From positions 1-32,835 of the forward strand of contig JADZDD010000040.1 of NCBI GenBank assembly GCA_020851235.1: a stretch of 32,835 bases of DNA. Reading direction: 5' to 3'. The notes beneath the pieces are model-generated. The model was not told where the DNA came from, did no database searches, and saw only the letters and a program-made list of their open reading frames with translations. Every line of letters starts with the position of its first letter. Positions within the stretch are counted from its first letter, which is position 1. The translations under genes were made by a program, and so were the position numbers. Below are positions 6,096 to 30,513 of the stretch, piece by piece. Source of the DNA: Burkholderiales bacterium. GTDB taxonomy: Bacteria > Pseudomonadota > Gammaproteobacteria > Burkholderiales > Casimicrobiaceae.

Positions 6096-7376
6096 TCAGT
6101 TCTGCGACCAGCCTTCGGCGTAGAGCTGCTGTGCAAGCAGCCCCAGGCGCATGGTCAGGACGTAGTTCTCGCCGTCCTCGATGAGTGCTGCGCGCGCGTC
6201 GCGATAGAGTCGCTCGATCGGGTACTCGCGCGAGGTGCCGAAGCCGCCGAAGAGTTGCAGCGCCTCGTCGGCGACCTTCATCGCTTCCTGCGTGACGGTG
6301 ACCTTCGCCGACGCGGTCACGTACGGATGCGTCTGCGGCGACTGCCGGGCATAGGCGAGCGAGCGGCGCGCCACCGAGCGCGCGAGCTCGACCCGGCGCA
6401 GCATGTCGCCCAAGCGAAAGCGCGTGAGCTGATGGTCGATGAGCAACCTGCCGCCCTGGCGCCGCTCGTGGCAGTACTGCAGCGCGAGCTCGAAGGCGGC
6501 ACGGGCGAGACCGGTGAACACCTGCGACATGTGCGTGCCCGCGTATGACCAGGCTGAGGCCATGTTGCCGTAGTACTCGTCTTTGAGCGCGACGGCAAAG
6601 CGCTTCGGGATCCGGACGTTGTCGAAATAGATCTCGCCCTGCGGCAGCGAGCGCTGGCCGATCTTGTCCAGCGGCTTGCCCTTCGACACGCCTTGCAGAT
6701 CGAGCGGGATGATCACGCTCATGCCGTGCGGGCGGCCGTCCTTCTCGAACAGCCCGTCGCCGTAGTCGGCGCCGATGTAGCCCAGTGCAACCTGCGCGAC
6801 CGCACCATTGGAGACCCAGGCCGAGCACTGGCCATTGATGACAATCTCGTCGCCGGCGAGCCGCCCCCAGACGTTGCCGCGGTTCCCCTGCTGGCCCGCA
6901 ACCCATTCGCGCGCCATGTCGAAGACCTGCACGTCGCTGCCCTTGTCGGGGTGGGTGATCATCCAGCAGCCGATCTTGCCGCTGCACAGATCGACCAGTT
7001 CCTTGTTGCCGACCGCAGCCGCCATCTGAAGCGGAAATCCGCAGGCGCCCAGCGAGACGCCGAGCCCGGCATCGCCCCAGCCCAACTCCTCGCCGATCAG
7101 CGACTCCATGCGCACCGCCACCGACGGCGGCAGTTCGGCCATCATCGCCGGATCGAGCCCGAGCTTCGCGTACTCGGCGAAGACGCCGTAGTACGGCGAG
7201 CCGGGCGCGACCACGTCCTCCGCGCTCATCTTGTCGAGTTCGGCGCCGAGCGGGCGCAGCACGTCCCGGGCGAATCGATGCACGCCGGCCTGCACCGCGG
7301 CTTCTTCCTCCGACAGCGGCGTCTCGAAGCCGGTCAGGCCGACGGCCGGCAAGGTGAGTTCAGGTTTCAGCGTCAT
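6096..7376 (-). CDS. acyl-CoA dehydrogenase
   Basis: A 426-residue FAD-dependent acyl-CoA dehydrogenase catalysing alpha,beta-desaturation of an acyl-CoA. The N-terminal helical domain is followed by the beta domain with GCWMITHPDKGSDVQ and IYFDNVRIPKRFAV, and a C-terminal helical domain ending QLFGGFGTSREYPIERLYRD, which holds the FAD/partner-subunit contacts. The region DARAALIEDGENY carries an acidic residue at the place expected for the catalytic base, though this is judged by eye. ATG at 7376 was chosen because an AAGGAG lies about 10 bases upstream; the frame is open 18 codons further but that peptide shows no family-like sequence. It is the first gene of the operon that continues to 2035, so its promoter should lie in the 7377-7844 gap. 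Confidence 0.92.
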   Translation of the reverse strand: MTLKPELTLPAVGLTGFETPLSEEEAAVQAGVHRFARDVLRPLGAELDKMSAEDVVAPGSPYYGVFAEYAKLGLDPAMMAELPPSVAVRMESLIGEELGWGDAGLGVSLGACGFPLQMAAAVGNKELVDLCSGKIGCWMITHPDKGSDVQVFDMAREWVAGQQGNRGNVWGRLAGDEIVINGQCSAWVSNGAVAQVALGYIGADYGDGLFEKDGRPHGMSVIIPLDLQGVSKGKPLDKIGQRSLPQGEIYFDNVRIPKRFAVALKDEYYGNMASAWSYAGTHMSQVFTGLARAAFELALQYCHERRQGGRLLIDHQLTRFRLGDMLRRVELARSVARRSLAYARQSPQTHPYVTASAKVTVTQEAMKVADEALQLFGGFGTSREYPIERLYRDARAALIEDGENYVLTMRLGLLAQQLYAEGWSQN

Positions 7377-7844
7377 CACGAGGAGGCTCCTTTGCACACA
7401 CGGGGATCGCACGGACCGGGGGGTGCTCACCCGGTGGCGGGCAGCGGCAGGTCACCTACGCCCGCTCGCCCGATCGGTGCGACTCAAGCGAGGCCAACTA
7501 TCCGCGATTGCGGCGCGCGCTGCCCCACCCCAAAGGTGTTGGCCTGCGCTCGCGACGCGGATGAGCCTGCCTGCTCCTGCCGTCGTACCGCTCGCGACGT
7601 GAAGGCGCCTTGGAGGCGCCGTGGGCCGACACTGTCAGGCCAGTTGCAGCCCTGACATCGGGCAGCCGCGGCGCTCCCTCTCATGCACCCTCGATCGCGG
7701 ATCGGCCTCCGCACCGCGCAGACGGCACGGCTTCGGCGCTCCAGCGCCCGCTTGACCGGCACCACCAACCCGAAACACTCGGCTTCGCGTGGCTTGAATT
7801 TCCTGGCCGTTAGCCGTTTCGGAACACCTGCAGCGCGGTTTAAC
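7377..7844. other. intergenic region between divergent operons
   Basis: About 470 bases separate the start of the acyl-CoA dehydrogenase operon (minus) from the toxin-antitoxin promoter (plus). Short open frames exist on both strands but none has a good ribosome site, a recognisable domain or a convincing composition. The region must hold the operon promoter; no clear -35/-10 pair or regulator palindrome could be picked out by eye. Confidence 0.5.
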
Positions 7845-8576: not shown

Positions 8577-8900
8577 ATGTCGATCATCCGCACGTGGTGC
8601 GAGCTCAAGCTCTGGCACGTCCAGTTCAACGTGCTCAACCGGCAGACGCTGCTCGCCGCGCAGAAGAACCCGGAGAAGTACCGCAACCTCGTCGTGCTCG
8701 AGTTCATCCGGCCGTACCGCAACGTCGTCGGGTTCGAGCTCCTGCCCTACCACCGCTTCGGAGTGGGCAAGTACGACATCCTCGGCCGCGTCTACGGTTT
8801 GCGCGATTTCCCGGTCCCGGACGCCGCGTCGCTCGCGCGGCTGCGCGCGGTCATCGGCGAGGCGTTCGCGCTCCGCGCCGCGGCCGTCGCGCCCTCGTGA
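8577..8900 (+). pseudogene. in-frame hybrid remnant: glycyl-radical enzyme C-terminus joined to its activase C-terminus
   Basis: The 107-residue open frame has two unrelated halves. Residues about 12-40 ([20 protein letters not shown], then PEKYRNLVV) match the segment that precedes the glycyl-radical loop in pyruvate-formate-lyase-like enzymes, where RVAGYSxxF should follow. Instead residues about 42-100 ([20 protein letters not shown], then [11 protein letters not shown]) match the end of radical-SAM glycyl-radical-enzyme activases. In living systems the two proteins are encoded side by side, so one deletion taking out the radical loop and nearly all of the activase, including the CxxxCxxC cluster motif, would create this joint. 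It cannot have either activity. Which glycyl-radical enzyme it was cannot be told. Confidence 0.75.
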
Positions 8901-8930: not shown

Positions 8931-9203
8931 CGATCAAAGCAGCCCCAGGAGGCGTGCGCGCGATCAATTTGTTGGGCAGATTGGCGTTGAGCAGGCCAGG
9001 ATCTCGGCTTCCTTCGGCGTGAGCAGCCCACCGTGACCGGCGGTTCCACGAAGCACTCGCGGCGGCGCCGGGGCAGGCTTGTCGCAGGTGGCCGAGTCCG
9101 ACCAGGAGCCATCCAAGGCCGAAGCCGATGCGGGGCGACCCATCCTCGGCCACGCCCTTCACATCGGCCTGGATGCGGCGCACCCCCTGGTACTTGCCAC
9201 GGC
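8931..9203 (-). pseudogene. deletion-riddled second copy of the LuxR/MalT-type regulator
   Basis: Two blocks resemble the intact regulator at 9610-12243, same strand and same order. Block 1 (about 9065-9203) corresponds to about 10600-10740 and encodes MRRIQADVKGVAEDGS and WLLVGLGHL. Block 2 (about 8931-9035) corresponds to the 3' end and encodes LNANLPNKLIART plus the final bases; a stretch of about 100 bases coding the DNA-recognition helix is missing inside it. Between the blocks most of the gene is gone. This looks like an old paralog or duplicate reduced by several internal deletions. Homology was judged by eye from the nucleotide match; identity is clearly below 100 percent, so it is not a recent tandem copy. 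Confidence 0.75.
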
Positions 9204-9609: not shown

Positions 9610-12243
9610 TCACAGCAGCCCCAGCAGACGGGCCCGGTCGACGGCATGCCGCCGCGAGGCGGCATTCAGCTTGGAGAAGAGGTTCTTCAGGTGCCATTTC
9701 ACCGTGTCGCCGCTGATATCGAGCGTGCGCGCGATGAGCTTGTTCGGCAGGTTGGCGCTGAGCAGGCCGAGGATCTCGGCTTCTTTCGGCGTGAGCAGTC
9801 CGCCCGGTCCGGCGGTGCCGCTGGGTGCGGCCGGTGGCGGCGGTGATGCGACCCGGTCGCCGGACTCCCCGGTGCCATGCAGAAGTCTCGATGCGCGCGG
9901 GTGCGCGTCGCCGATCACGCGTGCCAGTCCGTTGAGCGCCGCGAGGCCCGACGCCTCCTTGAGCAGCGCCAGCGCCCCGTGGTGGCCTTGCGCATCGGCG
10001 GCCACCGCGCGCAACGTCATGATCAGGATGCGCTCGCGATCGCGCTGCAATCGAGTGGCGAAGGTCTCGGCCTTCTTCAGTGCCGGCTCGGCGGCGGCGG
10101 GATCGAAGGCGGCGAGGGCACGGTAAGCACGCGCGAGCGCGACGGCAAGCTCGTAGTGCGGCAGCAAGAGGGCATGGTCCTGGCGCTTGAAGGTCGGTCG
10201 CATCGCTTCGAGCTGACGCAGCGCCTCGGCGGCCGTTTCCGGCCGGTCGGCGCGGGCATGGATGCGGATTTCGTCGGCGAGACTCGCCGCCGTAAGGCGC
10301 GGCATGGAGCGCGCTTGCGCACATGCCCGCAGGTTCTCGAGCGCCGCGAGTGCCTGTCGCTCGTCGCCGCGAACCAGCGCGACCCGCGCCACCGTCCGGT
10401 ACGCATGCAGGATCGCGTCGGGCATCGAGGTTCGTTCGATGACGTCGAGGCGGTCGGCAAGGAGTTCCTCGGCGCTGTGGACCTGGTCGCGCTCGTAGGC
10501 GGCCGCAGCCAGCACGGCCGCGTACATCGCCGCCAACGCGCCACGGCGCCCCGAGTACTGTTCGGCGTCGATCAGCGGCTGATGCAGCGCGGCGTCCGCC
10601 CGATAGACGTTGCCCTGCTGCAGATGGCCGAGTCCCACCAGGAGTCGCCCGATGCCGAAGGCGATGCGGGTCGACCCATCCTCGGCGACGCCGTTCACGT
10701 TCGCCTGGATGCGGCGCACCTCGTGATGGTCGCCACGGTACAGCGCCATCGCGGAGAGAATGTTGGCGTGGGCGACGTGGTCCAGGGGATCGTGGTCCGT
10801 CGTCGGTGCCGCCATCCAGTCCTTCATCAGCGCGGGCAGCAGTCCGGGCCGGTCGTTGAACACGGCTCCGGTGGCGGCCACCAGCGTGGCGCGGAAGCGC
10901 TGGTTCGCATCGAGGGAGGAATCCTCCAGCACGCGCTCCGCAATCTGCTGCCCCTCGGCGGCACGATCGCCGATCGTCAGCGCCCACGCTGCCATCAACT
11001 GCCACGACACGTTCTGCTGGAGCGCTTGCGGTGGAACCCGATCGATCCACTCGCGGGCTTCGGCGATGCGGCCGGCGCGCCCGAGATCCCACAGGCCGCG
11101 CAAGGCGAACGATTGCGCCAGGGCGGGATCGCCGGCACGCAACGCGTGGTGGCCGGCCTCCGCAAAGCGGTCGTGTTCGGCAAACCACGCACTTGCCCGC
11201 CGGTGCAAGTCGTGCTGCTCGGCCTGTGGCAAGCGCTCGAACCGTGCGAGCAGGAAATCGCGTGCCAGCGGGTGCATGCGGATCCACGAGTGCCGTTCGG
11301 TGGCAATGAGGATCGGGGTTTCCGCCGTCAACCGGACGATGAAATCGGCGGCCCGCGCGCATCCCGTCACGGCGCCACAGGTCTGTGGTTCGATGATCTC
11401 GAAGATGGCGATCTGCGTGAGGAACTGCGCCAGCTCCGGCGGGAGGCGATCCAGCAGTGATTCGAGGAAGTAGCGCTCGATCGCGCCGCCGCGGGCCGAT
11501 ATCGACATCACCGCGACGTGCAGGTCGGGCTCGCGCTCGATGGCCGCCGCCGCGAGTTGCAGGCCGATCGGCCAGCCGCCGGTGATCTCGTGCAGCCGGA
11601 CCCTGTCGTCCATCGACAGGCCCGTGCCGAAACGCTGGGTGAGGATCGCCACGGCCTCGTCCTGTTGCAGGCGCAGATCCTTCGTGGTCAGCGTCATCAG
11701 CGCATCGTGCGCGAGCAGATCGGTCGTGGCGATCGGCAGCGGCGCGCGTGACGCGATTACGATCTGCAGGTTCGACGGCGCGTTCAGCAGCAGGTAGGCA
11801 AGTGCGCTCTCGGTCGTGGCCGGCGGCAAGCGTTCGGCGTCGTCGAGCATCAGGACCGTCGGCGTCGCGAGTTCAGCGATCGCCGACAGCAGGCTCGTCA
11901 GGGCGTCGAGTTCGCTTCCGGGGCGGCTCGCCGATTGGGCCGCGAGCGTATCGAAGACGCTGCGGCCACTTGCCATGCGCAGGGTCTGCAGCAACGCCTG
12001 CGTCAGGCGCGGCGGATCGTCCTTGGCATCGAGAACGAGCCAGCCCACGAGGGCGCCCTGTCCCAGCCACAGGCGGCGCCATTGCAGCAGCAGCGTGGTC
12101 TTCCCGAAGCCGCCCGGTGCTTCGACCAGAACCACGGCATGCTCACGAGCCGCCTCCCATAGCTTGCGCAGGCGGGGCGGCAACAAGGCCGCCTTTGGCA
12201 TCCTGGGCGGCGTGCATTTCAGGGACAGTGCGGGATCGGCCAT
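9610..12243 (-). CDS. ATP-dependent LuxR-family regulator (MalT/AlkS-like, STAND ATPase)
   Basis: An 877-residue cytoplasmic transcription regulator. N-terminal NTPase: Walker A in EAPGGFGKTT (residues 41-50), Walker B TVLMLDDAE (about 150), sensor-like VIASRAPLP. A long helical TPR/SUPR-type middle (about 340-800) should bind an inducer, and the C-terminal LuxR helix-turn-helix (LTPKEAEILGLLSANLPNKL, then DTVKWHLKNLFSKL) binds DNA. Size and layout match MalT and AlkS. It is divergent from an AlkK-type acyl-CoA ligase across a 208-base gap, so control of that gene and the following catabolic genes is likely. The ATG at 12243 has only a weak ribosome site. A decayed copy of the same gene lies downstream at 8931-9203. 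Confidence 0.92.
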   Translation of the reverse strand: MADPALSLKCTPPRMPKAALLPPRLRKLWEAAREHAVVLVEAPGGFGKTTLLLQWRRLWLGQGALVGWLVLDAKDDPPRLTQALLQTLRMASGRSVFDTLAAQSASRPGSELDALTSLLSAIAELATPTVLMLDDAERLPPATTESALAYLLLNAPSNLQIVIASRAPLPIATTDLLAHDALMTLTTKDLRLQQDEAVAILTQRFGTGLSMDDRVRLHEITGGWPIGLQLAAAAIEREPDLHVAVMSISARGGAIERYFLESLLDRLPPELAQFLTQIAIFEIIEPQTCGAVTGCARAADFIVRLTAETPILIATERHSWIRMHPLARDFLLARFERLPQAEQHDLHRRASAWFAEHDRFAEAGHHALRAGDPALAQSFALRGLWDLGRAGRIAEAREWIDRVPPQALQQNVSWQLMAAWALTIGDRAAEGQQIAERVLEDSSLDANQRFRATLVAATGAVFNDRPGLLPALMKDWMAAPTTDHDPLDHVAHANILSAMALYRGDHHEVRRIQANVNGVAEDGSTRIAFGIGRLLVGLGHLQQGNVYRADAALHQPLIDAEQYSGRRGALAAMYAAVLAAAAYERDQVHSAEELLADRLDVIERTSMPDAILHAYRTVARVALVRGDERQALAALENLRACAQARSMPRLTAASLADEIRIHARADRPETAAEALRQLEAMRPTFKRQDHALLLPHYELAVALARAYRALAAFDPAAAEPALKKAETFATRLQRDRERILIMTLRAVAADAQGHHGALALLKEASGLAALNGLARVIGDAHPRASRLLHGTGESGDRVASPPPPAAPSGTAGPGGLLTPKEAEILGLLSANLPNKLIARTLDISGDTVKWHLKNLFSKLNAASRRHAVDRARLLGLL

Positions 12244-22929: not shown

Positions 22930-23069
22930 TGCCGTCCCGCTCGCCCGGACGCGCGGCGCGCATCGTTCGGAGCGACCGCGCCGATGCGGACGTCACCGGC
23001 CGCACCGCGTCCGCGGCGCGAGCGGGCAAGGGCGCGCGGCCGGTCGGCTCCGCGCGCCGTTCACCCCGT

Positions 23070-24356
23070 CTACATCAGGGCGTCGGCCCAGATGTTCTGC
23101 GCCCACGCGAACGCGAAGCGGCCTTCGAGTTCGCTCATCGCGGGAGACAGGCCGCCCGAACCGGGTACCGGCAGGATGGACTTCTTCGCGGCGTCGTACT
23201 GGTGCACCGAAACGACGTGCACCACCTCCTTGTCGGTGATGAAGCTGTAGCAGTTGTTGGTCAGCACCGGCGCCGGGTTGGCCGGCTTGCCCGCGAGCGC
23301 GTTCAGGATCGCGGCGGCGGCCACCTTGGCGTGGTTGTTCGCCATGTGTCCGGACTTCGGCATCCCCGACGCGCTCTGGGTCGAATCGCCCAGCACGTGG
23401 ACGCCCTTGCCGCGGATCGACTCGAACGTCAGGAAGTCGACCTCGCACCAGCGATCGTTCGCGGTCACGACGCCCGCCGTGCGCGCGATCGCGCCGGCGC
23501 GCTGCGGAGGCACCACGTTGATCACGTTCGCGCGGACGTCGTCGCCGAACTCGAACTTGAGCGTGCGGGTCGCGAGGTCGACGTCGGCGAGCGCGTGGTT
23601 CGGCCGGTACTCGACGATGCCCTTGTACTCCTCGTTCCAGGCCTTCGTGAAGAGGCCCTTCTTCGACGTGACATCGGCGTTGGCGTCGAGGATGAGGACC
23701 TTCGAGCGCGGCTTCTGGCGCTTGAAGTACCACGCGACCTGGCAGGCGCGCTCGTAGGGCCCGGGCGGGCAGCGGTAGGGCGCGAGCGGGATCGAGAGTG
23801 CGTAGACGCCGCCGTCCGGCATCGCCTCGAGCTGGCGGCGCAGCAGCACGGTCTGCGGACCCGCCTGCCACGCGTGCGGCGCGATCTCGACCGCGCGCGC
23901 GGCGTCGGCCCGGTACGACGGAATCGTGCCGAACATGAACTCGATCCCCGGCGAGAGGACGAGGCGGTCGTAGGAGAACGACCGTCCGCCCGCGGTCGTC
24001 ACCACGCGCCGGTCGACGTCGACGCCGGTCGCGGTGTCGCGCACGAGATTCACGCCCCAGCGGCTCGCGAGCGCGTCGTAGGGCGTGGTCACGTCGGCGA
24101 TGGTCTTGCTGCCGCCGATCACGAGGTTCGACATCGGGCAGGACACGAAGCTCTCGCGCGGTTCGATCAACGTCACCTCGACGCTGCCGCCGCTCCACAT
24201 GCGCAGGTACTTCGCCGCGGTCGCGCCGCCGTAGCCGCCGCCCACGACGACGACCTTGCCGCGGGCGCCGCCCGCCGTCGTCGCGCATCCGGCGAGCACG
24301 CCCAAGCCCGCCGCCGCCGCGGCCGCCTGCAGGAATTCACGTCGTTGCATCGTCAT
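23070..24356 (-). CDS. soxF: flavocytochrome c sulfide dehydrogenase, flavoprotein subunit (FccB/SoxF)
   Basis: A 428-residue FAD protein that oxidises sulfide in the periplasm and passes electrons to its cytochrome partner. The N-terminus has a twin-arginine signal (MQRREFLQ) with a hydrophobic stretch and LAGC, which could also be a lipobox. The FAD motif VVVVGGGYGG lies at 35-44. Cysteines fitting the redox-active pair and family motifs are Cys73 (VSCPMSNLV) and Cys196 (YRCPPGPYERAC). VHVLGDSTQSASGMPKSGHM is the second FAD contact, and the C-terminal EGRFAFAWAQNIWADAL is the FCSD tail. It follows the cytochrome gene by 10 bases. It is complete with no sign of decay, unlike soxA, soxX and soxB nearby. 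Confidence 0.93.
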   Translation of the reverse strand: MTMQRREFLQAAAAAAGLGVLAGCATTAGGARGKVVVVGGGYGGATAAKYLRMWSGGSVEVTLIEPRESFVSCPMSNLVIGGSKTIADVTTPYDALASRWGVNLVRDTATGVDVDRRVVTTAGGRSFSYDRLVLSPGIEFMFGTIPSYRADAARAVEIAPHAWQAGPQTVLLRRQLEAMPDGGVYALSIPLAPYRCPPGPYERACQVAWYFKRQKPRSKVLILDANADVTSKKGLFTKAWNEEYKGIVEYRPNHALADVDLATRTLKFEFGDDVRANVINVVPPQRAGAIARTAGVVTANDRWCEVDFLTFESIRGKGVHVLGDSTQSASGMPKSGHMANNHAKVAAAAILNALAGKPANPAPVLTNNCYSFITDKEVVHVVSVHQYDAAKKSILPVPGSGGLSPAMSELEGRFAFAWAQNIWADALM

Positions 24357-24366
24357 GGCCGCCCCC

Positions 24367-24672
24367 TCACTTCGCCGGTTGCGAGGCGAACCAGCCCGCC
24401 ATCGCGTCGATCTGCGCGTCGGTGAATCCCTTCGCGAGTTGCGGCATCACGGTGCCGGGCCGCGTGCCGGCCTTGAAGGCGCGCATCTTGCTCGCCGTGT
24501 CGTCCTTCGACCGGCCCGCGAGCGAATCGGTGCCGCCCCGGCTCACGCCGTTCGTGCCGTGGCAGTTCGCGCATGTCGCCGCCATGTCGCGCGCCTGGTT
24601 GGCGTCGGGTGCCTGTGCGAAGGCGGTCGTTGCCGCGAGGGCGAGGACCGGAATCGCCATGATCGCTTGCAT
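24367..24672 (-). CDS. soxE: class I cytochrome c, flavocytochrome c partner (FccA/SoxE type)
   Basis: A 101-residue secreted monoheme cytochrome. A signal peptide (MQAIMAIPVLALAATTAFAQ) is followed by the heme site CANCH (residues about 34-38) and GVSRGGTDSLAG, with the sixth-ligand methionine likely in GTVMPQLAKGFTDAQ. It ends with a typical C-terminal helix (QIDAMAGWFASQ). A strong GGAGGAG precedes the ATG. Ten bases separate it from the flavoprotein gene, so the pair should form flavocytochrome c sulfide dehydrogenase, with this subunit taking electrons from FAD. Being first in this small operon, its promoter should lie upstream of 24672. Confidence 0.9.
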   Translation of the reverse strand: MQAIMAIPVLALAATTAFAQAPDANQARDMAATCANCHGTNGVSRGGTDSLAGRSKDDTASKMRAFKAGTRPGTVMPQLAKGFTDAQIDAMAGWFASQPAK

Positions 24673-24866
24673 AATCGTCTCCTCCAGAATGGGCCCGGAT
24701 GCACGTCACCGAACGGCTCGCGAGGCACCGGTAGGATAGCCGTTTCCACGACATGGGTATAGGGACGCGTTGGCCGACGACCTTCGTTCGAATTCATTCC
24801 CTCCGTGCGGCAGGACTGCCGGCGCGGAAACGATGCGCGTTCGGCTCGGCAGGTCGAGGGGCGGTC

Positions 24867-25205
24867 GTGGGTCGTGAAACCGGCCGGTCGGCTGTCGACG
24901 CGACGCTCACCTTTCTCGGTGCCGCGGGCGAGGTCACCGGCAGCGCGTTCCTCGTCGAGGTTCCTCAGGCGCGCTTCCTCGTCGACTGAGGCATGTTCCA
25001 GGGAAGGAACAGCGGCGAGAAGAACGCCGCGGGTCCGGACGTGGCGCCGGAGGCCGTCGATTCCGTGGTGCTGACGCACGCGCACGTCGACCACTCGGGA
25101 CTGCTGCCTCTCCTCGTTCGCCGCGGATTCCGCGGGCCGATCTACGCCACGCCGGCCACCTGCGACCTCCTGGGCGTCATGCTGCCCGACGCGGCGCACA
25201 CGCCG
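24867..25205 (+). pseudogene. metallo-beta-lactamase-fold hydrolase fragment with internal stop
   Basis: The plus-strand frame reads LTFLGAAGEVTGSAFLVEVP, FLVD, then TGA at 24987-24989, and continues in frame with GMFQGRNSGEKN, VLTHAHVDHSGLLPLLV and GPIYATPATCDLLGVMLPDA. This is the start of an MBL-fold nuclease-like protein (CPSF73/RNase J-like branch) with the HxHxDH zinc motif. Relatives have Cys at the stop position (FLVDCGMFQG). The homology ends at about 25200, where minus-strand soxB-derived sequence begins, so the rest, including the beta-CASP and RMMBL parts, is lost. GTG at 24867 is only a candidate start. Confidence 0.7.
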
Positions 25206-25978
25206 AGGTTGACGCTCGGCTCGCGATAGTGGAGCGGCAGGAGCTGCGCGTGGCAGTCGGTGAAGTGCAGGAGGCTTACGTTGCCGAACGGCTTGATCGC
25301 GCCGTAGAACGTGGCACCCGCGGCCGCGTCCTGGCCGAGGGCGCGCGGCATGTTGGAGCACGCGCTGTATGCCGCGGAGTTCCAGATCTTGCCGTACGCG
25401 TACTTGCGCATTTCGTCGCTGTAGCCGCGGACCTTGCCGAACTGGTACAGCGTCGGACCGATGGTGCCGAACGACACTTCCTGCGGCGAGAGCTGGTGGC
25501 AGGCATAGCAGTCGCCGCCGACCGGCCCCTTGGGGTCGTCGGACCACTGCTTGCCGCGGCCCTCATGCGCGATGCGCTCGCCGTTCTTCCAGTCGCCGAC
25601 ATACTTGCCGTCCGCGGGCCACGTGGTGTAGCCGTTCTGCGCGCCGGCCTTGGTGGTCAGGTTGGGCAGATCCTGCAGGCGGATGCGCTTGTTGTCCTCG
25701 CCGCGGCAGGTCGCGCAGGAAAAGTCGTGCGAGCCGCCGCGGAAGTAGAACATCCTCTCGCCGAGGCGGTAGGCCTCCCGCTCCTTGGGATGCGACGTGG
25801 GCACGGCCATCTTGATGCCGCGCGCCTCCCACAGATCGGCGAGATTGCCGTCCTGCAGCGCGGCGCGGTACTTGGCGATCTCGTCGACGGTCGACGTCTG
25901 CGCGAGCACCGCGCCGACGACCAGCGCGACGGACGCGGCAAGGGCGATGCGGGCGGGCGCCCGGAGCAACTAGCTCAT
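25200..25978 (-). pseudogene. soxA: soxA-soxX-soxB collapsed hybrid
   Basis: GGAGG and ATG at 25978 are followed by AGC and then TAG, a stop at codon 3. The frame then runs open to 25142. SoxA island: EIAKYRAALQDGNLADLWEA, DFSCATCRGEDNKRIRLQDL, YTTWPA; the heme motif is CATCR, so the heme histidine is lost, and the SoxA active-site cysteine region is gone. SoxX island (about 25610-25290): KYVGDWKNGERIA, GGDCYACHQLSPQEVSFGTI, YSACSNMPR, with heme motif CYACH kept. SoxB island (about 25290-25200): KPFGNVSLLHFTDCHAQLLP, YREPSVNLGV, with the rest of the enzyme lost. Gene order soxA-X-B fits known clusters. None of the three proteins can be complete. Confidence 0.8.
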
Positions 25979-26060: not shown

Positions 26061-26372
26061 TCACGCGATCGTCGCCTCGTCGGTGCGCTTGTCGCCGCGA
26101 TTGTCGGTCCAGGTGATGACCACCTTGTCGCCCTTGGCGCCGCCCTTGAACTTGAACGACATGAACGGGTTCTTGGAGATCGCCGGGCCCCACTGCGCGG
26201 CGAGCACGGTCTTGCCGTTCCACGTCGCGGTCACGTTCTGGATGAACCACGCCGGGATCACCTTGCCGGACGCATCCTTGCGCTGGCCGGTCTCCATCTC
26301 ATGGCTCATGAGCACCTTCACCTCGGTCGAATCGCCGACGACGTTGGCGCGGATTCGCATCGGATCTGCCAT
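26061..26372 (-). CDS. soxZ: SoxZ, sulfur carrier complex subunit
   Basis: A 103-residue SoxZ: MRIRANVVGDSTEVKVLMSH, EMETGQRKDASGKVIPAWFI, the WGPAISKNPFMSFKFKG block and the closing KVVITWTDNRGD are characteristic. SoxZ has an immunoglobulin-like fold and pairs with SoxY in the periplasm to present the covalently bound sulfur intermediate to the Sox enzymes. It has no signal peptide, as normal, since it is exported with SoxY. It lies 38 bases downstream of soxY on the same strand. The gene is intact. Confidence 0.96.
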   Translation of the reverse strand: MADPMRIRANVVGDSTEVKVLMSHEMETGQRKDASGKVIPAWFIQNVTATWNGKTVLAAQWGPAISKNPFMSFKFKGGAKGDKVVITWTDNRGDKRTDEATIA

Positions 26373-26410: not shown

Positions 26411-26881
26411 TCACCCGCCGCAGCCGCCGAGCGTGACCCTGATCTCCTTGGTGGCCACGTAGTACTTGCCGTCGGCCTTCACCAGCGCGTACACGTTCGA
26501 GCTCTGGCCCATCTTGATCCGGGTCGTCACGGCCGGATCGGTGCCGGGCGGGATGTCGAAGACCGCCGCCAGCATGTTCGGGTTCTTCTCGACCAAGATC
26601 GCGATCGACTCCGTCTTGGGAATCGCGCTGGTCACGCCCACCGGCACCACGGCGCCGTTCTCGGCGATGTCGGGCGTCTGCACGAACGCGATATCCTTGC
26701 TTTGCGTGGGCGCCGCGCCGCCCAGCGCCTTCACGGTGGCGTCGAGCGACTGCGTCTCGAACGCCGCCTTGTTCCAGTCCGCCGCGAGCGCGTCGCCGGG
26801 CAGCCAGCCGGCCGCGGCCAGCAGCGTGAGCAGGGTGACGCCCCCGCCAGCCCGCAGCACCTCCCTGCGTTTGCCGTCCAT
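26411..26881 (-). CDS. soxY: SoxY, sulfur carrier protein
   Basis: A 156-residue SoxY with a signal region KRREVLRAGGGVTLLTLLAA (a twin-arginine-like KRR start) and the carrier tail VTLGGCGG, whose cysteine carries the sulfur adduct. The mature part (DIAENGAVVPVGVTSAIPKT, ESIAILVEKNPN, RIKMGQSSNVYALVKADGKY) is typical. ATG 26881 has GGGGGCAGGA upstream; the ATG at 26893 lacks a ribosome site. SoxYZ is intact although its usual partners SoxAX and SoxB are collapsed here, so thiosulfate oxidation by the standard route would need copies elsewhere in the genome. Confidence 0.96.
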   Translation of the reverse strand: MDGKRREVLRAGGGVTLLTLLAAAGWLPGDALAADWNKAAFETQSLDATVKALGGAAPTQSKDIAFVQTPDIAENGAVVPVGVTSAIPKTESIAILVEKNPNMLAAVFDIPPGTDPAVTTRIKMGQSSNVYALVKADGKYYVATKEIRVTLGGCGG

Positions 26882-26960
26882 TCCTGCCCCCATGAGTGGA
26901 AGCGCGGATTCTACCGCCAGCGGATGAGCTTGCGGCAAACACCCCTCCATGCGCTTATGA

Positions 26961-27230
26961 CTACTTCGCTCCCGCCAGGATCCACTGGACGAGCGTGCGC
27001 GCGTCGGCGTCGGACAACAGCGGCTGCGCCGGCGTCGGGACGGCGCCCCAGGCCCCGGTGCCCCCGGATTTGACCTTGACGACGAGACGGGATTCCGCGG
27101 TGGTGTCGCCCGCATAGCGCGCCGCGACATCGCGAAAGCCGGGCCCGATCACCTTGGCGGACACGCCGTGGCACGCCATGCACGCGGCCGCCTTCGCGAG
27201 GTCGAGCGGCGTCGCCGCGGACGCAGGCCG
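26961..27230 (-). pseudogene. cytochrome c551-like domain lacking its signal peptide
   Basis: The frame encodes TPLDLAKAAACMACHGVSAK, VIGPGFRDVAARYAGD, VKVKSGGTGAWGAVPTPAQP and DADARTLVQWILAGAK, a complete small class I cytochrome c domain (heme site CMACH). The usual GxxPMPP(A) methionine ligand appears as GAVPTPAQP, so the axial Met seems replaced by Thr. Upstream of about 27230 there is no signal peptide: the frame runs into a DUF1178-derived piece. Without export the heme could not be attached. It lies between soxY and the transporter gene, where Sox clusters often carry such a cytochrome. Confidence 0.65.
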
Positions 27231-27334
27231 GGCACCGCACCAGTCCGGTCGCGAGCTGCGACTCGAACGCCTCGCCCGAGTCGAACCAGCCCTCGAAGCC
27301 GTGTCCGCGCGCCGCGGAGGTCGAAGACGATCAC
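27222..27334 (-). pseudogene. DUF1178 N-terminal fragment, frameshifted
   Basis: From a GTG at 27334, preceded by GGGCGGGA, codons read VIVFDLR, then in a shifted frame GHGFEGWFDSGEAFESQL and VRCPAC. Put together these give the DUF1178 start (MIVFDLxCxxGHxFEGWF...LVxCPxCGS), a small zinc-ribbon-like family of unknown function. The frame changes once near 27310 and the rest is replaced by the cytochrome segment. It is dead as a DUF1178 protein. Confidence 0.55.
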
Positions 27335-27368
27335 GGATCCCGCCCAAGGTCCTGGGTGCGCACGCGCG

Positions 27369-28484
27369 CTACCCGATCCGGTCCAGCCGCCAGGTCTGGT
27401 AGCGGAACGCCGCCACGGCGCCGGCGACGATCGACGCGAGCGCGATGATCGAGCCGAGCGCGAGCGTCGACATGCCGGTGAGTCCCTGTCCGATCGTGCA
27501 GCCGAGCGCGGTGATGCCGCCGAAGCCCATCATCGCGCCGCCGACGATGTGGTTGGCGATGTCCTCGACGCTGCCGAAGCCCTCCCACCGGAACGTGCGC
27601 GACACGAGCGCGTAGGCGAGCGAGCCCGCCATCATGCCTAGGGCGCCCGCGATGCCGAAGGTGACGACCCGCGTGCTGTCGGTCCACAGCATCAGAAGTT
27701 CGAGCAGGTAGGCGGCCGGCGCGACGAACGAATAGGACTCCATGCGCCCGGTGTTCGTCGCGACGAATTTCTCCTCGAGCGTGGCCGGGTCCTCGGCGAG
27801 GAAGCCCACGTGGCCGGAGACGTACCAGCCGCCGACGATCACCGCGCCGACGATGACGCCGCCGACGACCATCTCGGTCGTCCCGCGGAAGTCGCGGCTC
27901 GCGAACACGAACGCGGCGATGGCGGCGGCTACCGCGAGCGCCACCGCGAGCCTCGCCCCGCCGGCGGAGGCGCCGACGATCGACGGCAGGTCCGAGGTCT
28001 TCGTCCCGAACACGCCGGCGACGTCGAGCCGGACCGGGTCGAGGCCGAACGCGCGCACGCCCGCGAACGCGCCCTTCAGCGTCATGTAGGCGGTGATCGC
28101 GAGCACGATCAGCACGACGAGCGACTTGAGGTTGCCCGCGCCGACGCGGATCAGCGTCTTGCTGCCGCAGCCCGAGGCGAGCGCCATGCCGAAACCGAAC
28201 AGCAGGCCGCCGACGACGTTCGACAGCCACGAGACCTGGCCGCCGGTGTAGATCGACTTCGCCACGTCGATCGATCCCGCGGCCTGCAGTGCGCCGGTGC
28301 CGGCGATTGCGACCGCGATCGCGAGCAGCCACATGCGCATGCGCCGCCAGTCGCCGAAATTCACGACGTCGGAGACCGCACCCATCGTGCAGAAGCTCAC
28401 GCGGTTCGCGACCCAGCCGAACACGAAAGCGAGCGCGAACGCACCTCCGGTGACGAGCGGGGCGAGCTGGGCGGCGTCCTTCAT
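27369..28484 (-). CDS. YeeE/YedE-family thiosulfate/sulfur transporter (TsuA-like)
   Basis: A 371-residue polytopic inner-membrane protein with about nine to ten hydrophobic helices. The family's conserved cysteines are present: Cys32 (RVSFCTMGAVSD), Cys106 (ALASGCGSKT) and Cys329 (ITALGCTIGQGLTG). In TsuA-type transporters such cysteines pass thiosulfate through the membrane by S-H...S contacts. The length fits the single-chain (TsuA) form rather than split YedE/YeeE halves. ATG 28484 has no good Shine-Dalgarno. It is upstream of the sox genes on the same strand, so import or export of a sulfur compound for that pathway is a fair inference. The gene is intact. Confidence 0.9.
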   Translation of the reverse strand: MKDAAQLAPLVTGGAFALAFVFGWVANRVSFCTMGAVSDVVNFGDWRRMRMWLLAIAVAIAGTGALQAAGSIDVAKSIYTGGQVSWLSNVVGGLLFGFGMALASGCGSKTLIRVGAGNLKSLVVLIVLAITAYMTLKGAFAGVRAFGLDPVRLDVAGVFGTKTSDLPSIVGASAGGARLAVALAVAAAIAAFVFASRDFRGTTEMVVGGVIVGAVIVGGWYVSGHVGFLAEDPATLEEKFVATNTGRMESYSFVAPAAYLLELLMLWTDSTRVVTFGIAGALGMMAGSLAYALVSRTFRWEGFGSVEDIANHIVGGAMMGFGGITALGCTIGQGLTGMSTLALGSIIALASIVAGAVAAFRYQTWRLDRIG

Positions 28485-29842: not shown

Positions 29843-30104
29843 AAGGATAGGAAATCCAACGGCACGACGCGTCATCGCCGGAGGCGTGGCACGTCTTGAC
29901 TTGCCCGGACGGATGGGAAGCAGGGAGGGTCACGGGTCGTCGCGCGGCCGGGCATCGGGCCTATCCCACAGCGGCGGGCCGCGGGCCGGGGCGATGGTGG
30001 GCGGACGGATCGGCTCGCCGAGGTGGGCGAGGATGGCACGCACGGTGCTGGGTTGGGTGATGAAGGCGACGACGCGCATCTCGGTTGCGCAAAGCGGGCA
30101 CAGC
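29843..30104 (-). mobile_element. IS91/ISCR-like element end (3' transposase fragment plus origin-type terminus), copy 1
   Basis: On the minus strand the fragment encodes the zinc-ribbon-like transposase tail (CPLCATEMRVVAFITQPSTV, ILAHLGEPIRPP, APARGPPLWDRPDARPRDDP), stopping at 29930. About 85 bases further lies the terminus CGTTGGATTTCCTATCC, which resembles the origin end of ISCR elements (...CTTCCTATACCC). 29843-30077 repeats at 32601-32835 with about five mismatches. The rest of the transposase is missing; at about 30104 the sequence changes to a proline racemase gene. Confidence 0.7.
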
Positions 30105-30381
30105 AGTGGCCGCACATGCCGATGACGCCGACGTTGTTGAAGAAGATGACGCCGGCCGAGCAACTGCCGTCCTCCGGCGGCACCAGCAGCGCGCCCACGA
30201 TCACGTCCGAGCCCCGGGGCTCGTTGACGATCGCCGAGCGGAAACGGTCGAAGTCGCTCCGGAAGCGCTCGTGCCGCGCGGCGAGGCTGCCACCGCCCAG
30301 GTCCGGCCCGCCCTCGACGACGACGCGCGCGGGCTCGCCGCCGGTGTGCGAGTCGACGACGCGAATGGCGTGCGCGCTCAT
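30105..30381 (-). pseudogene. proline racemase / 4-hydroxyproline epimerase N-terminal fragment
   Basis: From ATG 30381 the frame reads AIRVVDSHTGGEPARVVVEG, FRSAIVNEPRGSDVIVGALL, SCSAGVIFFNNVGVIGMCGH, the first 90 residues of the proline racemase family, including the first catalytic cysteine (MCGH). Directly after MCGH the sequence switches into the IS91-like transposase fragment, so the second half with the second catalytic cysteine (CGT) is gone. The family racemises or epimerises proline or hydroxyproline without cofactor. The gene is inactivated by the element end. Confidence 0.8.
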
Positions 30382-30513
30382 GATGGCGCAGATCCCTCGC
30401 GCCTGTGCTGAAGCGCGCGGGAGCGCCACTGCAGGTCGCGCGCGATCGGCGTGTCGCGCGTTTCGGAAGCGAGCATGTCGAGTCGGTGGAAGGATGAGGG
30501 TCCGCCTGGGCGG

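Follow-up and report, generated by a model that had tools for sequence, protein, structure and literature searches.

Remnants of soxA, soxX and soxB joined in one reading frame in a Casimicrobiaceae genome: a probable young pseudogene beside flavocytochrome c genes

The sox genes of Burkholderiales relatives are arranged in a soxYZAXB operon, and this operon is the closest described system to the locus considered here. In the available part of one report (PMC11582611), SoxXA and SoxB load SoxYZ, and SoxT importers are also described; the available part of another (PMC11237559) has SoxH in place of SoxB in a Sulfurimonas. The order soxYZAXB is found in 18 of 20 loci fetched from relatives, the two exceptions being a locus (L126) that ends at its contig end after soxX and that of G008, which has soxB alone. 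Among 21 other genomes of the same genus, matches to soxA, soxX and soxB occur together in 17, G008 has a match to soxB only, and G003, G007 and G021 have none. A candidate single frame for soxX and soxB in G020 (an 807-aa match for both) was ruled out by a stop between the two genes. G008 also harbors, at about 6570-7582 of its contig C219, a divergent SoxA-like and SoxZ-like pair that is distinct from the canonical sox locus. Another relevant comparison is with those bacterial pseudogenes that form by deletion at short repeats.

The locus resides within a window of 32,835 nucleotides, this being the whole stretch of DNA analysed, from a genome assembly of a Burkholderiales bacterium of the family Casimicrobiaceae. 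Piece by piece, in both homology and order, it resembles the operon of relatives and the SoxAX structures 3oa8 and 3ocd, whose SoxX and SoxA are the PDB sequence matches of the fused protein, but soxA, soxX and soxB are here cut to about 117, 92 and 45 codons, respectively, and joined. As the earlier note had claimed, the pieces lie in a single open frame, which spans 25969-25142 on the minus strand and encodes 275 amino acids. The extent given previously, 25142-25978, holds for the open frame but not for its start: the ATG at 25978-25976 is followed by AGC and then by an in-frame TAG (25972-25970), and the nearest start for it is a TTG at 25969-25967, downstream of which a signal-peptide-like sequence is visible by eye.

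The fused protein is matched by the NCBIfam profiles for SoxA (TIGR04484; residues 48-119, 63.9 bits, 1.2e-17), SoxX (TIGR04485; residues 151-210, 54.4 bits, 1.6e-14) and SoxB (TIGR04486; residues 209-263, 49.2 bits, 2.5e-13, profile positions 20-74 of 556). None of these scores reaches its curated cut-off (110, 61 and 550 bits, respectively), and each profile is only partly covered, as expected because the protein holds gene pieces only. That three Sox profiles match one protein could point to a known multi-domain Sox family, an idea that deserves next to no credence in view of these partial, sub-threshold scores and of the stops that separate soxA, soxX and soxB in all 24 relative loci where the three can be placed. 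The derivation of the islands from three separate genes, as originally proposed, is thus upheld.

The N-terminal SoxA remnant (25826-25978, minus strand) comprises the signal peptide and the first ~50 codons, and aligns with the SoxA N-termini of 27 relatives; it is followed by a remnant of the C-terminal domain (25615-25825, minus strand), identified by profile, alignment and PDB match. In the alignment to relatives these two pieces correspond to fused residues ~3-51 and 48-119. The heme motif of SoxA, CxxCH in 27 of 27 aligned relatives, reads CATCR, such that the heme His is lost, and the Cys-containing stretch that follows WPA (YRV.QG...DC) in 19 of 19 translated relatives is deleted. The SoxX core remnant (25343-25614, minus strand; profile and alignment, fused residues 117-209) retains the CxxCH heme site, CYACH at 25510-25496, whose intactness had been correctly recognized, together with the downstream Met (CSNMPR). 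It lacks about 85 N-terminal and 28 C-terminal residues, and the C-terminal segment ending LLxDPxSPVN, present in 12 of 12 aligned relatives, is absent. The SoxB remnant (25199-25334, minus strand; profile and alignment, fused residues ~214-257) preserves under one-tenth of the protein, without a full catalytic domain. That this is an N-terminal SoxB piece agrees with the earlier description, but beyond 25199 the final 18 codons of the frame are not SoxB; they run antisense to a metallo-beta-lactamase-fold (MBL) gene, itself truncated. The orthologues are intact in relatives and the copies here carry disabling changes, the combination by which a pseudogene of an operon is recognized.

There are four joints rather than the three first counted, the additional one being inside soxA near 25820. 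This joint (25817-25827, minus strand) falls at an ARG/SRG motif, where CGCGCGGC is shared in relative G009 as judged by eye; 279-282 nt are missing, and both sides can be placed in four of eight relatives. The identical run, again by eye, is 8 bases with G009 and 5 with G035. At the soxA/soxX joint (25614-25618, minus strand), where a stretch coding WPA is found on both sides in some relatives, 448-469 nt are missing, the far side is placed in eight of eight relatives, and the identical run by eye is 6 bases with both G009 and G035. For random point pairs in these genes, identical runs of at least 8 bp have a frequency of 0.0004, and those of at least 6 bp one of 0.0036. The soxX/soxB joint lies at about 25335, to within 25312-25343 (minus strand), with a far side plausibly placeable in two of eight relatives. 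Finally, the sox locus meets the fccAB/MBL segment inside soxB at 25199-25200, with ~2 bp shared by eye and a far side placed in none of the eight relatives, whose loci are without the MBL gene. As these comparisons stand, short homology would not count as established at the latter two joints. The positions suggested earlier near 25610 and 25200 agree with those found, while that near 25290 is replaced by 25335.

The persistence of an open frame across these joints has a simple explanation. In relatives, repeats shared by these genes are in the same codon phase in 61-68% of instances when they measure 6 bp or more and in 74-83% when they measure 8 bp or more, the percentages being pooled over related genomes and so not independent. 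The chance of three in-frame joints is ~0.27 to 0.48 if all are on such repeats, a figure that presumes a repeat also at the soxX/soxB joint, where homology is not established, as against 0.04 without homology. A joint at a short repeat in these genes is more likely to be in phase than out of phase. The frame survives because most short repeats that these GC-rich genes have in common agree in codon phase, and for the same reason it constitutes weak evidence for selection at most.

The neighboring genes are whole. Domain profiles match SoxY, SoxZ, FccA, FccB and the YeeE/TsuA-like transporter over nearly the entire length, in accordance with the earlier view that they are intact. On one side, soxZ (26061-26372, minus strand) is followed by soxY (26411-27130, minus strand), which ends in GGCGG and whose true start is placed at ~26881 by alignment, and then, upstream of soxY, by a monoheme cytochrome c frame (26961-27347, minus strand; profile and relatives), whose 3' part overlaps the soxY frame in its upstream portion. 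No signal peptide is recognizable by eye in this cytochrome frame; relatives of it are found on the same side of soxY in five fetched sox loci. The transporter (27369-28484, minus strand, start approximate; domain profile) lies in a frame of 854 aa. On the other side are fccB, the FCSD flavoprotein (23070-24356, minus strand), fccA, the cytochrome subunit (24367-24672, minus strand), and the N-terminal part of the divergent MBL-fold gene (24896-25200, plus strand; domain profile and relatives), which is truncated and carries an in-frame TGA at 24987-24989. From 23005 to 25200 the DNA is 87% identical to the fccAB-MBL region of G014, in which sox is on a different contig, and G001, G019 and G015 also have fccA and fccB together with a divergent MBL gene. 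Because fccB is far closer to that of G014 (92.9% identity) than is rpoB (83.7%), an exchange of the fcc segment between lineages seems to have taken place.

Replacement copies were sought in the genome, an assembly of 41 contigs that is 98.8% complete. It contains no second match to the fused protein and no full SoxB above the cut-off of 550, where a 56-bit match on contig C4 and the remnant itself were the only hits; SoxC gave a single 27.5-bit match against a cut-off of 420. The TsdA-type domain PF21342 (SoxA/TsdA) is not detected in this genome, or in G003 and G021, while the positive controls G009 and G014 were matched, G007 has a match of 53 bits and G008 has three. The 3' part of the MBL gene is likewise not found elsewhere in the genome. 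The proposed takeover of thiosulfate oxidation by another locus therefore receives no support from this assembly, with neither a second soxA, soxX or soxB nor a TsdA-type domain. The other suggestion, of thiosulfate oxidation lost and sulfide oxidation kept, fits in that the SoxAXB part is lost and FccAB and SoxYZ are whole; its sulfide half is likely, judging from intact fccAB. Since the damage is too young, whole soxYZ and fccAB are no proof of continued use.

The age of the damage is gauged from codon positions. In a tree of 25 sequences, the ratio (b1+b2)/2b3 is 0.06 on the remnant branch as compared with 0.03-0.39 in relatives, a pattern of working genes with no relaxation, on a branch mostly older than the damage; this test does not discriminate between a young pseudogene and a gene that is kept. 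The value for soxYZ is 0.08. The fused frame is free of small frameshifts, and its GC content at third positions is 0.94. Because the remnant branch keeps the pattern of working genes, the damage would appear to be young. A remnant so little decayed leaves room for selection on the fusion, which may operate. In structure prediction the mean pLDDT is 42 for the fusion and 49 for an intact SoxX control with an equally shallow alignment.

Other relics occur in the window. The LuxR-type gene at 9610-12243 apparently has a shredded partial duplicate beside it, in the form of two short pieces at 8952-9202 (minus strand) that match it with 83% and 86% identity; the LuxR gene itself has 67-75% matches in G003 and G008, which do not help with the origin of the contig. 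An N-terminal piece of a proline racemase, covering profile positions 1-86 of 325, is found at 29872-30429 (minus strand), and beside it, near 30000, a transposase-like tail was suspected by eye, for which a Pfam search of eight further window ORFs found nothing. A 107-aa frame at 8577-8900 (plus strand) has a glycine-radical match to profile positions 59-96 of 106 only. The LuxR and proline racemase pieces count in favor of reading the fused frame as a young pseudogene.

The explanation that best accommodates the pieces and the order in which they are joined, the joints themselves, the stop codon, the altered heme site and the absence of other copies from the assembly is a young pseudogene that arose by short-homology deletions and a junction to the fccAB segment, to which we assign a probability of roughly 0.8; all of the evidence comes from one assembly of the species. 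The starting point would have been a normal soxYZAXB operon. Most of soxA, soxX and soxB would have been lost from it through three internal deletions, of which two map to short shared sequences, and through a junction that links soxB, at an internal point, to a segment with fccA, fccB and the beginning of the divergent MBL gene. We infer short-homology deletion as the mechanism and loss of Sox thiosulfate oxidation as the consequence, and the fused product would not be expected to work as SoxA, SoxX or SoxB. Large deletions on short shared sequences, nonsense codons and whole neighbors are features in common with bacterial pseudogenes formed by short-repeat deletion, the difference being that here a single frame happens to survive three joints in succession. 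The remnant is most likely real but ordinary, the result of recent, ordinary gene loss.

It is unlikely that the joints are chimeric products of assembly or binning in an organism with a normal sox operon. An assembly of 41 contigs, several joints inside 800 bp and a coding fraction for the window of 0.78, the lowest of 10 stretches of this genome on a rough ORF-based estimate (with two others at 0.80), would be in keeping with such an artefact. However, the runs shared at the joints are 2-8 bp, the usual assembly k-mers being far longer, the missing parts are without a second copy in the assembly, the joints are accompanied by two nonsense codons and a lost heme ligand, and soxAXB is absent from G003 too. 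Missing sox genes can reflect contig breaks, according to the available part of PMC6382920; in contrast, the remnant sits inside a contig, ~7 kb and 25 kb from its ends. It is very unlikely that the frame is a working new gene for a secreted chimeric c-type cytochrome, starting at TTG 25969 and combining the SoxA signal peptide with the SoxX heme center. The open frame across three joints, the signal-peptide-like sequence, the retained CYACH and CSNMPR and the lack of a sign of relaxed selection are all compatible with such a gene, and the earlier note had taken the in-frame joints as a hint of a hybrid secreted heme protein. That hint is not borne out: in-phase joining is what short repeats tend to give, the start region reads ATG AGC TAG, the SoxA heme ligand is gone, SoxX has lost its N-terminal part and C-terminal helix, SoxB is reduced to less than a tenth, and the adjoining MBL piece also carries a stop.

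A second arrangement of interest occurs in G003, the nearest genome by rpoB (88.8% identity, bootstrap 100). For this comparison 31 genomes were searched, and rpoB sequences fit for the tree came from three outgroups and, besides the present genome, 10 members of the genus; members without a usable one, for example G009, could be closer. G003 is listed with 93% completeness and 6% contamination, and contamination is suggested by its second, very different rpoB (60% identity, an outlier in the tree). At 115-2693 of its contig C13 (locus L176), fccA, fccB, soxY and soxZ are consecutive and are followed by an unrelated gene on the opposite strand; the contig begins 114 bases before fccA, placing the upstream region outside view. 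No match to soxA, soxX or soxB was found in the G003 genome. FccB and SoxZ matches within 10 kb on one contig are seen only in G000, G003 and G083 (61 genomes searched for each), a count that may miss further cases as many assemblies are fragmented, and in G083 soxA and soxX are near the pair. The G003 cluster is thus like the present locus in having SoxYZ near FccAB in a genome without a soxA, soxX or soxB match, but differs in its gene order, in the lack of detected remnants and in its FccB and SoxYZ tree branches. In neither tree do the two group together, and in the SoxYZ tree the present sequence is weakly placed (56 with G009). The codon-position value of the G003 SoxYZ branch is 0.22, with no relaxation beyond relatives. 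In titles and abstracts, where coverage was mostly shallow, no report of this remnant or of soxYZ-fccAB without soxAXB was found.

A speculative possibility, which we regard as rather unlikely, is that in this clade SoxYZ acts as the sulfur carrier of FccAB instead of serving SoxAX and SoxB. Sulfane sulfur derived from sulfide would be loaded onto SoxYZ and passed on, perhaps to a YeeE/SoxT-like importer, and loss of soxAXB with proximity of fccAB and soxYZ would have arisen twice, cleanly in G003 and with a remnant here.

The locus would capture a thiosulfate pathway early in the course of its loss. It also illustrates that fused frames in GC-rich genes are not at once readable as selected fusions, with short repeats keeping codon phase. 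Together with G003, the remnant raises the testable question of whether, in the absence of SoxAX and SoxB, SoxYZ can serve flavocytochrome c.
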